In this document: positions 18,866 through 62,742 of the stretch, in pieces
Layout of the letters: every line of letters begins with the position of its first letter
Numbering within the stretch: the stretch's first letter is position 1
Source: Gemmatimonadota bacterium
GTDB taxonomy: Bacteria; Gemmatimonadota; Gemmatimonadetes; Gemmatimonadales; GWC2-71-9
Reading direction: 5' to 3'
Assembly: GCA_003221985.1 (NCBI GenBank)
Contig: QHUQ01000052.1
Coordinates: forward strand, 1 to 63,098
Length of the DNA: 63,098 nt
The notes under the pieces: generated by a model
What the model was told of the DNA's origin: nothing
Seen by the model: the letters and a program-made list of their open reading frames with translations, nothing else
Database searches by the model: none
Position numbers and translations under genes: made by a program

Positions 18866-19240
18866 GGAAGTGGTGAGACCATAAGCCGAGTTCTGTTTAC
18901 TCGTTGGTACGAGCAGATGGTCATCTCTCTGGGATGGCTGTCGCCAGCCATCTCGTGCGGCCTACCCGCAGCTCAAACGACCCGGGCCGGGTCTCGCTGC
19001 TTATTTGGCCTTGCTCCGACCGGGGGTTGCCGTGCCGCGCCTGTTGCCAGACGCGCGGTGGGCTCTTACCCCACCGTTTCACCCTTACCCTTTGGATACA
19101 AGGGCGGTCTGTTCTCTGTGGCCCTGTTCCGTCGCCTCGCGGCGCCCAGGCGTTACCTGGCGGTCTGCCCTGTGGAGCTCGGACTTTCCTCGATGGACCC
19201 CTCTAGCCGATCCACCGCGACCATCGGCCCCACCACTTCC
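18866..19240 (-). ncRNA. rnpB: RNase P RNA, bacterial class A
   Basis: Catalytic RNA that removes 5' leaders from pre-tRNA, working with the protein from rnpA. On the minus strand the conserved elements appear in order: GAGGAAAGTCCGAGCTCC near the 5' end, ACAGAGAACAGACCGCC, AAGGGTGAAACGGTGGGGTA, GTCGGAGCAAGGCCAAATA, GGGTAGGCC and AGAACTCGGCTTA near the 3' end. The ends are set by the P1 helix: GGAAGTGGTG at the 5' side pairs with CACCACTTCC at the 3' side, giving about 375 nt. It lies between two protein genes on the same strand, 41 bases after the preceding stop. Confidence 0.96.
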
Positions 19241-57716: not shown

Positions 57717-58718
57717 CTAGTTCGCAATCGCCCGCACCACGTGCGTCAGCCCGTGCACCACGCGCGCCATGCGGTCGTAGTCCAGCCTGTCGGGCGTGTC
57801 CTGCGGAGTGTGGTAGAACGGATTCCGATACGGCGCCGTATCGGTGATCATGATCGCATGATAGCCCTCCCTCCAGAACGACCAATGATCTGACCACCAC
57901 ACGCCCGGCACCCACGAGGGCGCGGCGGCGCCTTGCGTCGGCAGCGTGGCGTGCGCGCGGAACGCCGCGATCGCGCGATGCAGCAGCGAACGCGATCTGA
58001 GGTTCGAGACGAAGCCGATGAAATCACCGACGTCGGGATACGCGAGATTCAGCGGGAACGGATAGCGCTGGCTGCCCTTCTCCGTGTCGTAGTAGCCAAT
58101 CGATTCAATCGACAGCATCGCCACGATCTGGTCGTTGCGCTCTCGCGCCGCGGTCGCGTAGTGCCGGCTTCCCATGTCCGCCGTCGGAAACGACGGCGGC
58201 TCTTCGGTGGGAAAGAATACGAACCGCACGGTGCGCGACTGCCGCTCCTGCGCGAAGACCTGTGCCAGCTCGAGCACACCCGCCACGCCGCTCGCGTTGT
58301 CGTCGGCGCCGGGGGCCTGTTCGGCGGTGTCGTAATGCGCGCCGAGGACCACGACCTCCTGCGGCCTGCTGGTGCCGCGCAGCGTCGCCTCGAGATTGCG
58401 ATACTCGCGATTGTCCGCCGAGAACTCCTGCGAGACCACCTCGTAGCCCAGGCCTCGCAGCGTCCGCTCGATGTACGCCGCCGCCCGCTGCACGTTCGCG
58501 TACGTCTCGTCGCTGCGCACGCCGATGTCGTGCGCCAGCACCCGGACGTGTGTCTCGAGTCCGGTACGCAGCCGATCCTGGTTGGGAGTGAGCGCTGGCA
58601 GCGGTCCGCTGAAGGCGGGGCCGGGCATGCGCACGGTGAACAGCCAGATGATAAGGAAGAGGAGCGGCAGAATGCCGGCGAGCGCGATCATCCGGGTCAG
58701 CCCCCTGCGCATTGACAC
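57717..58718 (-). CDS. M28 family aminopeptidase-like zinc peptidase
   Basis: 333 residues with an N-terminal membrane anchor (about 10-30). Zinc site pieces: VVLGAHYDTAEQAPGADDNASGVAGVLELA (His, Asp), FFPTEEPPS (Glu pair), SIESIGYYD, and the late FYHTPQDTPD His. Peptidase domain is expected outside the membrane. GTG at 58718 or ATG at 58712. Divergent from the his leader. Confidence 0.9.
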   Translation of the reverse strand: MSMRRGLTRMIALAGILPLLFLIIWLFTVRMPGPAFSGPLPALTPNQDRLRTGLETHVRVLAHDIGVRSDETYANVQRAAAYIERTLRGLGYEVVSQEFSADNREYRNLEATLRGTSRPQEVVVLGAHYDTAEQAPGADDNASGVAGVLELAQVFAQERQSRTVRFVFFPTEEPPSFPTADMGSRHYATAARERNDQIVAMLSIESIGYYDTEKGSQRYPFPLNLAYPDVGDFIGFVSNLRSRSLLHRAIAAFRAHATLPTQGAAAPSWVPGVWWSDHWSFWREGYHAIMITDTAPYRNPFYHTPQDTPDRLDYDRMARVVHGLTHVVRAIAN

Positions 58719-58740
58719 AGTTTCGTCACTGCGCTATATC
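58712..58740 (+). promoter_or_regulatory. Predicted his operon promoter
   Basis: TTGACA (58712-58717), 17-base spacer, TATATC (58735-58740). The transcription start would fall at about 58747, one base before the ATG of the leader peptide, so the leader would be leaderless. The -35 overlaps the start of the divergent peptidase gene. Confidence 0.7.
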
Positions 58741-58747
58741 ACGGTCA

Positions 58748-58807
58748 ATGCAGCGTACTGCTTCGCACCACCGGCATCACCACGGTCACTCGGTCCACGG
58801 GGGATAG
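58748..58807 (+). CDS. hisL: Histidine operon leader peptide
   Basis: 19 codons, ATG at 58748 and TAG at 58805-58807. The peptide MQRTASHHRHHHGHSVHGG has seven histidines, clustered at codons 7-17. Too short for gene finders. Lies between a consensus-like promoter and a GC-rich hairpin before hisG. Function in transcription attenuation by ribosome stalling at low charged His-tRNA is inferred from the established his operon model. Confidence 0.85.
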   Translation: MQRTASHHRHHHGHSVHGG

Positions 58808-58874
58808 CCGGAGGCGTGTAGGATAGTCAGTCATCAACCGACGCCGGCCCCCCAGGGCCGGCGTCGTGCTTTTG
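58807..58874 (+). promoter_or_regulatory. his attenuator: antiterminator segment and terminator
   Basis: The terminator hairpin is CGACGCCGGCC / GGCCGGCGTCG (58839-58866) with a short C/A loop, followed by TGCTTTT. GCCGGAGGCGT at 58807-58817, beginning at the last base of the leader stop codon, can pair (8 bp with a three-base bulge) with ACGCCGGC at 58841-58848 in the terminator's left arm. That competing pair is the expected antiterminator; a ribosome halted at the His codons would leave it free, one at the stop would cover it. Confidence 0.72.
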
Positions 58875-58928
58875 GGGCGGCGTCGCGTGACCTGGGGGAC
58901 TCCGGTTCGGCCAACACGGAGCCGATAG

Positions 58929-59786
58929 ATGTCGATATTCCGCCTGGGCCTTCCCAAAGGCCGCATGGAGCAGGGGGTACTCACCCTCCTCGCCGACGCA
59001 GGAATTCGGGTGCGCCCGAGTGCCCGCGGTTATCGCCCCGACGTATCCCTGCCGGGCGTCGAGGCGAAGCTGCTGAAGCCCCAGAACATCGTGGAGATGC
59101 TCGCCCTTGGCAGCCGGGACATCGGCTTTGCCGGGGCCGACTGGGTGGCCGAGCTCGAGGCTGACGTCGTCGAATTGCTCGACACGGGCCTCGATCCGGT
59201 GCAGCTCGTGGCGGCCGCCCCGCTCGGACTGCTCGAGGCTGGCCGGCTCCCCTCACGGCGTCTGATCGTCGCGTCCGAATACGAGCGACTTACCCTGGGC
59301 TGGATCCGCAAGAGCGGTGTCTGCGCGGAGTACGTCCGGTCGTACGGCGCCACGGAAGTCTTCCCGCCGGAGGACGCAGACGTGATTGTCGACAACACCG
59401 CGACCGGTGCGACGCTGGAGGCGAACGGCCTCGGCATCGTCGATGTGTTGATGCGCTCATCCACGCGCCTGTACGCGCACCGCGCTGCGCTCGACGATCC
59501 CAGCCGGCGCCGCCACATCGACGATCTCGTCCTGCTGATCAACTCCGTCCTCGAGGCGCGGCGCCGCGTGATGCTCGAAGTGAACGCCTCGGCGGCCTGT
59601 CTCGACGCGGTTGTGGGTGTTTTACCGTCGATGCGACAAGCGACAGTATCCCGGCTATTTGGCGACAGTGGATACGCAGTAAAGGCCGCCGTGCCGCGAG
59701 AACTCCTCCCGCAAGTAATCCCCGCGGTGAAAGCAGCCGGCGGCACCGATGTCGTCGTCTCGGCCCTTTCGCAGATCGTGCCGTGA
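58929..59786 (+). CDS. hisG: ATP phosphoribosyltransferase
   Basis: First step of histidine synthesis, from ATP and PRPP. 285 residues, so the long form with a C-terminal regulatory domain, which should bind histidine for feedback inhibition. Motifs: RLGLPKGRM, DIGFAGADWV, DADVIVDNTATGATLEANGL, VKAAVP and VVVSALSQIVP. Overlaps hisC by four bases. Confidence 0.95.
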   Translation: MSIFRLGLPKGRMEQGVLTLLADAGIRVRPSARGYRPDVSLPGVEAKLLKPQNIVEMLALGSRDIGFAGADWVAELEADVVELLDTGLDPVQLVAAAPLGLLEAGRLPSRRLIVASEYERLTLGWIRKSGVCAEYVRSYGATEVFPPEDADVIVDNTATGATLEANGLGIVDVLMRSSTRLYAHRAALDDPSRRRHIDDLVLLINSVLEARRRVMLEVNASAACLDAVVGVLPSMRQATVSRLFGDSGYAVKAAVPRELLPQVIPAVKAAGGTDVVVSALSQIVP

Positions 59787-60772
59787 CAACGCTTCTCCGC
59801 CTCGACAGCAATGAGGGCCCTCCGCCCCCGACTGCTTTGCTCGCGGAGCTGGCGGCCCTGGACCCGGAGCTACTGCGCCGCTACCCCGATGCCACCGCGG
59901 TCGAGGCGGCGCTCGCCGGCCGACTCGGCGTGAGCCCCGAGCGCGTCGTCGTTACCGCCGGCGCGGACGAGGCGCTCGACCGCATCTGCCGGGCATATGC
60001 GGGTCCCGATCGCCCGGTGCTGCTCCCCGAGCCGACCTTCGACATGCTGGAGCGCTTCGCTCGACTCGCGGGTGCTCCGCTGGTGCGCGTGCCGTGGATC
60101 ACCGCTGCGTTCCCGGTCGACGCGCTTCTCGCCCGCGTCGACAACCGCCTGGGTGTCGTGGTGATCGTGTCGCCCAACAATCCGACCGGCGGCGTCGCAT
60201 CGCGGGATGAGGTGCGACGAATCGCCGCCGCGGCCCCTGAGCCCATCGTCCTCATCGATCAGGCCTACGTCGAGTACGCCGACGAGGACATCAGCCGGGC
60301 GGTACTCGACCTCGCGAATGTGGTCGTCGTCCGCACGATGTCGAAGGCCTGGGGTCTGGCAGGGTGCCGCGTCGGCTACGCCGTCGGCAGCCCGCGTGTG
60401 ATCGCCGTGCTGCGCGCCGCGGGCGGGCCATATCCCGTCGCGGGGCCGTCGCTCGCCCTCGCGCTGTCACAATTGCGTCGTGGCGACGCGGCGTTGCGCG
60501 CTCACGTGGCCCAAGTTCGCGGGGAGCGAGCCGTGCTGCGTGAGCTACTCTGCGCGCGTGGCGTGGATGCACGTCCCTCGCAGGCAAACTTCGTCCTCGC
60601 CGACTTCGGACAGCGGGCGGCGTTCGTCCGTGAGGGGCTCAGCGCAGTGGGAATTCTCGTGCGTCACTTTCCCGGTCGTGCGGGACTCGAGACGAGCCTG
60701 CGGATTACGCTGCCCGGCGATCCCGCCGACTTCGCGCGACTCATCGCGGCGCTGGAGGCCCTCCTTGACTAA
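59783..60772 (+). CDS. hisC: Histidinol-phosphate aminotransferase
   Basis: PLP enzyme of 329 residues from GTG at 59783 (GTGA overlap with hisG). It begins directly at LLRLDSNEGPPPP, shorter at the N-terminus than typical. SPNNPTGG, DQAYVEYA and the PLP-lysine VRTMSKAWGLAGCRVGY are present. Converts imidazole-acetol phosphate to histidinol phosphate. Confidence 0.93.
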   Translation: MTTLLRLDSNEGPPPPTALLAELAALDPELLRRYPDATAVEAALAGRLGVSPERVVVTAGADEALDRICRAYAGPDRPVLLPEPTFDMLERFARLAGAPLVRVPWITAAFPVDALLARVDNRLGVVVIVSPNNPTGGVASRDEVRRIAAAAPEPIVLIDQAYVEYADEDISRAVLDLANVVVVRTMSKAWGLAGCRVGYAVGSPRVIAVLRAAGGPYPVAGPSLALALSQLRRGDAALRAHVAQVRGERAVLRELLCARGVDARPSQANFVLADFGQRAAFVREGLSAVGILVRHFPGRAGLETSLRITLPGDPADFARLIAALEALLD

Positions 60773-61367
60773 CCGCACTGCAATCGTCGAGCGCGCCACT
60801 CGTGAGACATCGATTCGCGCGCAGCTCGTCGTCGACGGGTCGGGCCAGGCGGAGGTGCGGACCGGCATCGGCTTCCTCGATCATTTGCTGGAATCGCTGG
60901 TGCGGCATGCGCGGTTCGATCTCACGCTCCAGACGAACGGCGACCTGCACGTCGACGATCATCACACGGCCGAGGACTCCGCGCTCGCGTTGGGCGAGGC
61001 GCTCGATCGCGCGCTGGGCGAGCGGCGTGGGATCGCGCGCTTCGGCTGGGCCTACGCTCCGCTCGACGAATCCCTGGCCCGGGCGGTCGTGGATCTGTCG
61101 GGCCGCGCATTTGTCGACGTGTCGCTCGGTCTGCGCCGAGAATCGATCGGCGGGCTCTCGTGTGAGAATGTCCCTCATGTCTTGCGCTCGCTTGCTGCCG
61201 CGGGTCGGCTCACTCTCCATGTCGAGGTGCTCAAGGGAGAGAACGACCATCATCGCGCGGAAGCGGCGTTCAAGGCCGTCGCCCTGGCGCTGCGACAGGC
61301 TGTAGCGCGCACGCCGTTCGACGACGTGCCGTCCACCAAGGGAACGCTAGGGGCGCCGCGTGAGTGA
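60765..61367 (+). CDS. hisB: Imidazoleglycerol-phosphate dehydratase
   Basis: 200 residues from TTG at 60765, overlapping hisC. Metal-binding motifs [36 protein letters not shown] and [16 protein letters not shown] are complete. Monofunctional; no phosphatase domain. The start is set by TTG ACT AAC just before [14 protein letters not shown], which is the usual N-terminal strand. Confidence 0.94.
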
Positions 61368-62742
61368 TGTGGTGATCGTAGACTCGGGCGTCGCAAACCT
61401 CGCGTCGATCGCCGGCGCGTTCCGCCGGCTCGGCGCAGCGGTCGACGTCACCGCCGATCCCGCAGTCGCACGCGGCGCTGCGCGTCTGGTTCTCCCCGGG
61501 GTAGGCGCGTTTGGCGCGGGGATGACGTCGCTGCGAGCCCGCGGCCTCGACACTGCGATTCGTGATATCGCAGCGCGCGGTACGCCGCTGCTCGGCGTCT
61601 GTCTGGGCATGCAGATGCTGTGCGAGGCGAGTGAGGAGACGCCGGGTGTCGAGGGGCTCGGTGTTGTCGCTGGAACGTGCCGCCGGTTGCCATCGTATGT
61701 GCGAATCCCTCACCTCGGCTGGAACAGCGTGGCGTCCGAACCAGATGCGCGCTTCGTAACGGCCGGCGTCGCGGCGTTCGCGAACTCCTACGCGCTGCGC
61801 GAGAGCCCGGCCGGCTGGACGCCGGCCTGGTCCACGCACGGCGTTCCGTTCGTCGCGGCCCTCGAGCGCGGGTCGCTGCTCGCGTGCCAATTCCATCCCG
61901 AGCTGTCAGGCGCCTACGGCGCGGCGCTGCTGGAGCGCTGGCTGTCTGGTCAAAACGCGCCTTCCGGGCCCGCGGCGAACGGATCAGCCGGCCTGCTGCG
62001 GCGCATCATTCCGTGCCTCGACGTAAAGGACGGCCGTGTGGTGAAAGGCATCCGGTTCCAGAACCTGCGCGACGCGGGCGATCCCGCCGAGCAGGCGGCG
62101 CTGTACGAAGCGCAGGGCGCCGACGAGATCGTGATCCTCGACGTCGCGGCCTCCGCCGCCGGGCGCGGCACGCAGGTCGAGACGGTGCGGCGAGTGCGTG
62201 CGGTGCTGCGCATACCACTGACCGTGGGCGGCGGAGTCCGCACAGTGGAGGATGCCCGCCGCCTCCTCGTCGCCGGCGCCGATAAGGTGAGCGTCAACAC
62301 TGCTGCGGTGCGACGGCCCGCGCTGTTGACCGAGCTGGCTCGAGGCTTCGGCTGCCAGTGCGTGGTTCTGGCGATCGATGCGCGTCGCGCAGCCGAGCGC
62401 TGGGAGGTTTTGGTGATCGGCGGCCGCGAGACCGCGCGACCCGATGCGGTGGCCTGGGCCAGGGAGGGCGAACAGCTCGGCGCGGGCGAGATCCTGCTCA
62501 CGAGCTGGGATCGCGACGGCACGCGGGCGGGGCACGATATCGAGCTGCTGCGCGCCGTGGCGGACGCGGTGCGGCTCCCCGTCATCGCCTCCGGCGGCGT
62601 CGGAACGCGGGCGCACGTGGCCGCCGCCTTCGCGGCCGGCGCGGACGCGGTGCTTGCTGCATCGGTCTTTCACGACGGCGACGACACGGTGGACGGCATC
62701 AAGGCGGACCTCGCGGGCCAGGGAATTCGGGTGCGGCGATGA
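61360..62742 (+). CDS. hisHF: Imidazole glycerol-phosphate synthase, fused HisH-HisF
   Basis: One intact 460-residue frame carries both subunits. HisH (about 1-200) has the glutaminase Cys in [19 protein letters not shown], and His-Glu in [10 protein letters not shown] linker [13 protein letters not shown] (about 198-211) joins HisF (about 213-458): [33 protein letters not shown] and ASGGVGT, with both catalytic aspartates. Glutamine-derived ammonia would pass within the single chain. Order matches the eukaryotic HIS7 fusion. ATGA overlap with hisA. Confidence 0.93.

Follow-up and report, generated by a model that had tools for sequence, protein, structure and literature searches.

In E. coli and Salmonella, the hisL leader carries a Shine-Dalgarno (SD) sequence. 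Portions of the literature on this attenuator, whose Rfam family is RF00514, describe a run of His codons, a terminator and an alternative antiterminator (PMC3896937, PMC9413887), and a His-codon run, a terminator-like hairpin and a candidate antiterminator likewise precede the hisG gene examined here. The present leader differs from hisL in that it is apparently leaderless, its His codons are interrupted by Arg and Gly, and it belongs to a different phylum. A His leader with a terminator and an antiterminator has also been predicted for several Firmicutes (the B. cereus group, Peptostreptococcaceae plus Lutispora, and Erysipelotrichales), lineages other than that of the present locus, in excerpts of a survey that do not mention a leaderless start (PMC9413887). 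In the sections of the sources consulted, accounts of his attenuators concern Proteobacteria and a small number of Firmicutes (PMC9413887, PMC2965389), and no conserved RNA structure was seen before the his operons of Actinobacteria (PMC1262725).

Leaderless leader peptides are reported, in parts of the respective papers, for ilvBNC of C. glutamicum (PMC11857589, PMC4046766), for trpL of S. meliloti (PMC7298713) and for the poly-Cys ORFs of mycobacteria (PMC9031893, PMC13236596). The present leader resembles these, as far as those excerpts describe them, in having its ORF at the 5ˊ end of the transcript or without a ribosome-binding site. It differs in the amino acids and phyla concerned, and in that the leaderless start was reported there and is predicted here. 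A term search of the main text of a survey on leaderless genes gave no mention of Gemmatimonas (PMC3160421), and an excerpt of another source lists Gemmatimonadetes with an anti-SD sequence (PMC10783764).

Our search of the open-licence literature found no leaderless leader peptide for his operons or for Gemmatimonadota, and no Gemmatimonas article that treats either attenuation with a leader peptide or transcription start sites. Possible prior work reportedly includes a survey of bacterial attenuators by Lopatovskaya in 2010 and a screen of Actinobacteria for leader peptides containing His by Korolev in 2015, both cited in PMC4833913, and the mycobacterial poly-Cys leader ORFs are said to have been originally reported by Canestrari in 2020. 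The element described below is in all likelihood a real his attenuator and very probably a leaderless one, which follows known principles and is, as far as we searched, new for the phylum and for his operons.

The his leader region of the window

The window is the whole 63,098-nucleotide stretch of DNA that was analysed (~66% GC). It is from Gemmatimonadota, and its HisG protein is 89-91% identical to HisG proteins from MAGs labelled Gemmatimonadetes. Elsewhere it carries a class A RNase P RNA (18866-19236, minus strand). The features of the his leader region and operon are as follows:

58712..58717, plus strand: −35 element TTGACA, read from the sequence and located by script
58735..58740, plus strand: −10 element TATATC, with a 17-bp spacer before it and 7 nt between it and the ATG
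58747..58748, plus strand: predicted transcription start, at A58747 (1-nt leader) or A58748 (no leader)
58748..58807, plus strand: leader ORF encoding MQRTASHHRHHHGHSVHGG and a stop, 19 codons with 7 His and without an SD sequence
58764..58775, plus strand: segment A, within the His codons, predicted from the minimum free energy (MFE) fold to pair with B as a pause hairpin
58807..58818, plus strand: segment B, which shares its first base with the end of the stop codon and is predicted by folding to pair with A or C
58839..58850, plus strand: segment C, the 5ˊ arm of the terminator and the proposed alternative partner of B
58855..58866, plus strand: segment D, the 3ˊ arm of the terminator
58867..58873, plus strand: T-rich tail TGCTTTT, weak, with a short and interrupted T run
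58918..58921, plus strand: GGAG, a plausible SD sequence for hisG by its sequence
58929..59786, plus strand: hisG, first gene of the operon, matching TIGR00070 and TIGR03455 above cut-off
59783..62742, plus strand: hisC, hisB and a fused hisH-hisF, the next genes of the operon by NCBIfam matches (for hisC the best model falls below its own cut-off)

The fusion joins HisH and HisF in a single ORF of 460 amino acids (61360-62742).

A first-pass annotation had noted a promoter, a His-rich ORF and a hairpin directly before hisG, and this observation is confirmed. The promoter, given as TTGACA and TATATC separated by 17 bases, is present at 58712-58740 by direct reading and by script. The leader, said to hold seven His among 19 codons, starts with the ATG at 58748, ends with a TAG at 58805-58807 and has His at codons 7, 8, 10, 11, 12, 14 and 17. 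The GC-rich hairpin reported ahead of TGCTTTT (58839-58866) has 12 pairs, 11 of them G-C, and lies 62 nt before hisG. Within the window, the leader is the sole ORF beginning with ATG or GTG that has at most 50 amino acids and at least 5 His in 12 residues; mononucleotide shuffles of the window (n = 20) gave a mean of 0.05 such ORFs, and of 0.00 when at least 6 His were demanded.

The transcription start is placed at A58747 or A58748 on account of the position of the −10 element and the C-A step at 58746/58747. A consensus scan for promoters in the leader region listed none, and a strict TTGAC/TANNNT/start scan across the window returned no site, in both cases owing to the missing T at the end of TATATC. 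The DNA upstream of the promoter is occupied by a divergent aminopeptidase-like gene, whose ATG (58712-58710) shares the first base of the his −35 element. Within this shared region (58710-58740), the TATA of TATATC could serve both genes, one in each direction.

The likeness to enterobacterial his attenuation proposed at first pass extends to the logic of the system and not to detectable homology, since the Rfam His_leader model RF00514 matched neither the window (at gathering thresholds or at E values up to 10) nor ten relatives (at gathering thresholds). A T-box for His was likewise absent from the Rfam matches of the window under the same two settings.

Conservation of the leader and of its predicted RNA structures

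We compared 112 regions upstream of hisG, made up of the window itself, 21 loci from MAGs whose label is Gemmatimonadota or one of its orders (L001-L018, L025, L026 and L029) and 90 loci from a draw of the phylum around genome G003. That draw comprised 249 genomes, 146 of which gave a HisG match with an E value of 1e-20 or lower, and the 90 loci read were taken largely from those whose HisG was the more similar. With a leader defined as a short ORF having at least 3 His in 12 residues, 96 of the 112 regions carry one. The MAG set and the phylum draw overlap, and removal of identical leaders left 87 distinct ones, kinship being ignored in the count. Sixteen regions have no His leader by this ORF definition (L110, which is truncated, L115, L116, L120-L125, L143-L145, L154, L155, L160 and L169). 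Eleven of these were viewed by eye, and in several hisG sits close behind another gene; L169 retains a degenerate leader with two His. Two others, L115 and L116, present TTGAC and a terminator-like hairpin before hisG with no His leader ORF found between them.

Across the 87 leaders the His codons vary at the third position (283 CAC and 222 CAT). The same interchange is seen at codons 7, 10, 11 and 12 in alignment A1, which holds the window and 15 relatives, and it points to a coding constraint on the leader. Codons 8 and 9 (CAC CGG) belong to segment A and are identical in 15 of the 16 sequences. This would fit a double constraint on peptide and RNA, but codon 14, which lies outside segment A, is likewise CAC in all 16.

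One clade (L095, L100, L104, L105, L107, L109, L111, L112 and L114) has a modified his leader, in which MTNTH is followed by Phe/Tyr and then by H with Tyr/Phe and H, with GGR at the end, as in MTNTHPFFGHYYYHRVRGGR. Synonymous changes occur at its Phe and Tyr codons, and the leader may sense Phe, Tyr and His together. When genes for Phe or Tyr were sought by eye beside hisG in three members (L095, L100 and L107, ~1.5 kb downstream), only hisC and hisB were recognised.

Terminator-like hairpins follow the leader in 81 of the 87 cases by a strict scan and are visible by eye in the other six. Strong examples occur in 37 of the 87, compared with 0 of 435 mononucleotide shuffles. In the window the U-tract is poor, and the strict scan missed it in L003 and L004, which are close relatives. 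Covariation, scored with kinship ignored, supports two of the three helices in A1. The terminator C:D has 96.4% of its cells paired and a score reached by 1 of 500 shuffles, and the corresponding values for the pause hairpin A:B are 91.7% and 9 of 500. The antiterminator B:C is also paired in 93.8% of cells; it displays no covariation, its score being reached by 500 of 500 shuffles.

All three hairpins can be drawn in the window. The MFE fold of the leader (−56.6 kcal/mol, z −2.68) contains A:B and C:D. The B-C stretch by itself folds no better than shuffles (z 0.70), and in the window the duplex with the terminator arm does not surpass them either (z 0.0, or −0.1 with a longer stretch). In the wider set, the stretch after the His codons used in the first duplex test was too short (median z 0.32, 81 leaders), and the test was repeated with a longer one (median z −0.82, 84 leaders, 18 of them below −2). 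The longest exact complement to the terminator arm is significant in 5 of 84 leaders. Single-sequence duplex energies were discarded as proof of an antiterminator, being no better than shuffles in most species.

The 84 leaders with a placed terminator fall into two main stem types of 41 and 34, with 9 in neither. Matching of the arms across species beats permutation for the full set of 84 (0 of 5000 permutations), but fails to do so inside either type (3430 of 5000 and 4134 of 5000). Because the signal arises only between terminator types, it represents few independent events.

Segment B (GCCGGAGGCG) is coding in relatives, where it specifies QPEA, and noncoding in the clade of the window, and it is conserved in both, which suggests a constraint at the level of RNA. 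A CAG in the relatives is a TAG in the window's clade, and this difference puts segment B at the stop codon. The first-pass statement that a competing segment starts at the leader stop thus holds for that clade, where the final base of the codon is the first of B.

The antiterminator is the weakest part of the attenuator model. A leader that senses His with no need for the antiterminator as drawn, in which ribosome position, ribosome-polymerase coupling or Rho decides whether the terminator forms, would account for the absence of B:C covariation in A1 and within the terminator types, as well as for the weak U-tract. We regard it as unlikely, though the most serious of the alternatives, given that segment B is kept both within and outside the ORF, that A:B and C:D are supported, and that the B-side stretch changes together with the terminator type.

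The start of the transcript and the proposed mechanism

In 83 of the 87 distinct leaders a TTGAC is found 33-41 nt upstream of the start codon. Like the other leader counts in this section, this one ignores kinship, and where several leader ATGs were possible, one with TTGAC at this distance was preferred. The spacer is 17 in 71 of these 83, and the assigned −10 element ends 4-11 nt before the start codon; 37 of the 83 hexamers score as good TANNNT-like sites, with ties broken toward a spacer of 17. Transcription usually starts 6-7 nt after the −10 element, and therefore the 5ˊ UTR would be about 0-5 nt long. The short gap thus leaves no room for an SD sequence in the RNA.

By a crude count, an SD 4-mer precedes 2 of 87 leaders, in contrast to 71 of 363 other ATGs and 34 of 87 hisG starts, although the scored stretch (−18 to −5) also includes the −10 element, so that the depletion is partly forced. 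This agrees with the first-pass reading of the window leader, in which we likewise see no SD sequence by eye. Immediately upstream of the start codon, at position −1, 77 of the 87 leaders have a pyrimidine (C or T) versus 180 of 363 other ATGs, as expected if transcription begins on the A of the start codon. Unlike most of its relatives, the window has an A at this position.

Taken as a whole, the first-pass proposal of his attenuation with a leaderless leader ORF is well supported by conservation across the phylum, from which we infer the leaderless start itself, and translation of the leader peptide very probably proceeds on a leaderless mRNA. A classical attenuator whose transcript starts further upstream, giving the leader ORF a conventional 5ˊ UTR, draws some support from a start site that is predicted and from the imperfect −10 element of the window. 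It is nevertheless improbable in view of the near-fixed distance of TTGAC from the start codon (83/87), the SD 4-mer in just 2 leaders, the pyrimidine at −1 in 77 and the divergent gene that fills the upstream DNA. Finally, although short ORFs and hairpins rich in GC are frequent at this base composition, the chance that a His-rich ORF merely adjoins an unrelated, ordinary terminator is negligible for an ORF that is unique in the window and recurs before hisG in 96 of 112 regions.

We consider it highly likely that transcription of the his operon is attenuated here by a ribosome-mediated mechanism in which the ribosome loads on a leaderless AUG. RNA polymerase would begin on the AUG of the 19-codon, seven-His leader or on the base preceding it, and a ribosome would load on this 5ˊ-terminal AUG without SD pairing. 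When His-tRNA is scarce, the ribosome would stall at codons 7-12 and mask segment A, leaving B to pair with C as the antiterminator, and transcription would run on into hisG. When His-tRNA is plentiful, the ribosome would reach the stop codon abutting B and mask this segment; alternatively, A:B may form once the ribosome has left. With B either masked or held in A:B, the C:D terminator would form. The layout, its conservation, the absence of an SD sequence and the almost constant spacing of promoter and AUG are observed; the start site, translation, structural switching and response to histidine in this scheme are deduced from sequence.

Candidate leaderless starts in Gemmatimonadota and beyond

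The expectation at first pass that a leaderless attenuator would be unusual in this phylum is not supported. Matches to the pattern TTGAC-N17-19-TANNNT-N5-9-ATG number 237 across 15 genomes of the group, compared with 65 when GTA replaces ATG (a few of these overlap ATG sites) and 21 when the pattern is read backwards. In 21 of 30 loci read, the promoter-abutting ATG opens an ORF of at least 60 amino acids, and those recognised by eye include bL21, MurA, an ArsR-like regulator and antitoxin-like proteins. Promoters that abut ATGs thus appear to be frequent in Gemmatimonadota, and a leaderless attenuator there would not be out of the ordinary. Two loci (L277 and L279) have related ORFs of 71-75 amino acids with a promoter abutting the ATG. 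In genome G002, the promoter-ATG site of such an ORF is ~1.8 kb from that of a bL21-like gene, and similar pairs of sites are present in other genomes.

Other amino acid operons were covered as well. A strict scan of 198 hisG, leuA, ilvB and trpE loci yielded 37 distinct sites, of which 34 are His leaders and 3 are Leu or Ile leaders, and one shuffle of the same loci yielded 5 sites. A search for Leu and Ile leaders in 90 loci, with a terminator-like hairpin required, found leaderless Leu-rich leaders before leuA (L175, L177, L178, L179 and L182) and leaderless Ile/Thr-rich leaders before a leuA-like gene (L194 and L195). These leaders fit the genes they precede, and we count them as support for the leaderless attenuator. 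TTGAC-based scans found no leaderless Trp leader before trpE in 30 loci.

Outside the counted set, 18 of 59 loci in the range L019-L080 have a dense His ORF, although that of L024 looks spurious. TTGAC lies 35-39 nt before the start in 12 of the 18, and an SD 4-mer precedes one of the 18. Among the labels carried by the 12 are Acidobacteria, Vicinamibacterales, Planctomycetota, Phycisphaerales, Sumerlaeota, Acidimicrobiia and Spirochaetes, although labels of MAGs may be wrong.

A broader reading is that leaderless attenuation is standard for the amino acid operons of Gemmatimonadota, with transcription starting on the A of the AUG and one clade retuned to Phe/Tyr/His (MTNTHPFFGHYYYHR...), and that it extends, perhaps, to Acidobacteriota, Planctomycetota and others with a similar his leader. 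We hold this combined reading tentatively, at slightly less than an even chance. If it is true, the ribosome engages the 5ˊ end as the RNA emerges from the polymerase, and the retuning perhaps came about because the HisC of that clade also serves aromatic amino acids.

The findings extend leader-peptide his attenuation to a phylum for which we found no earlier description, with the leaderless layout in 83 of 87 distinct leaders. For the annotation of Gemmatimonadota genomes, they offer many candidate leaderless starts that can be computed. Attenuation also requires the timely arrival of the ribosome, which makes these leaders a natural setting in which to study how translation is coupled to transcription by a leaderless start.
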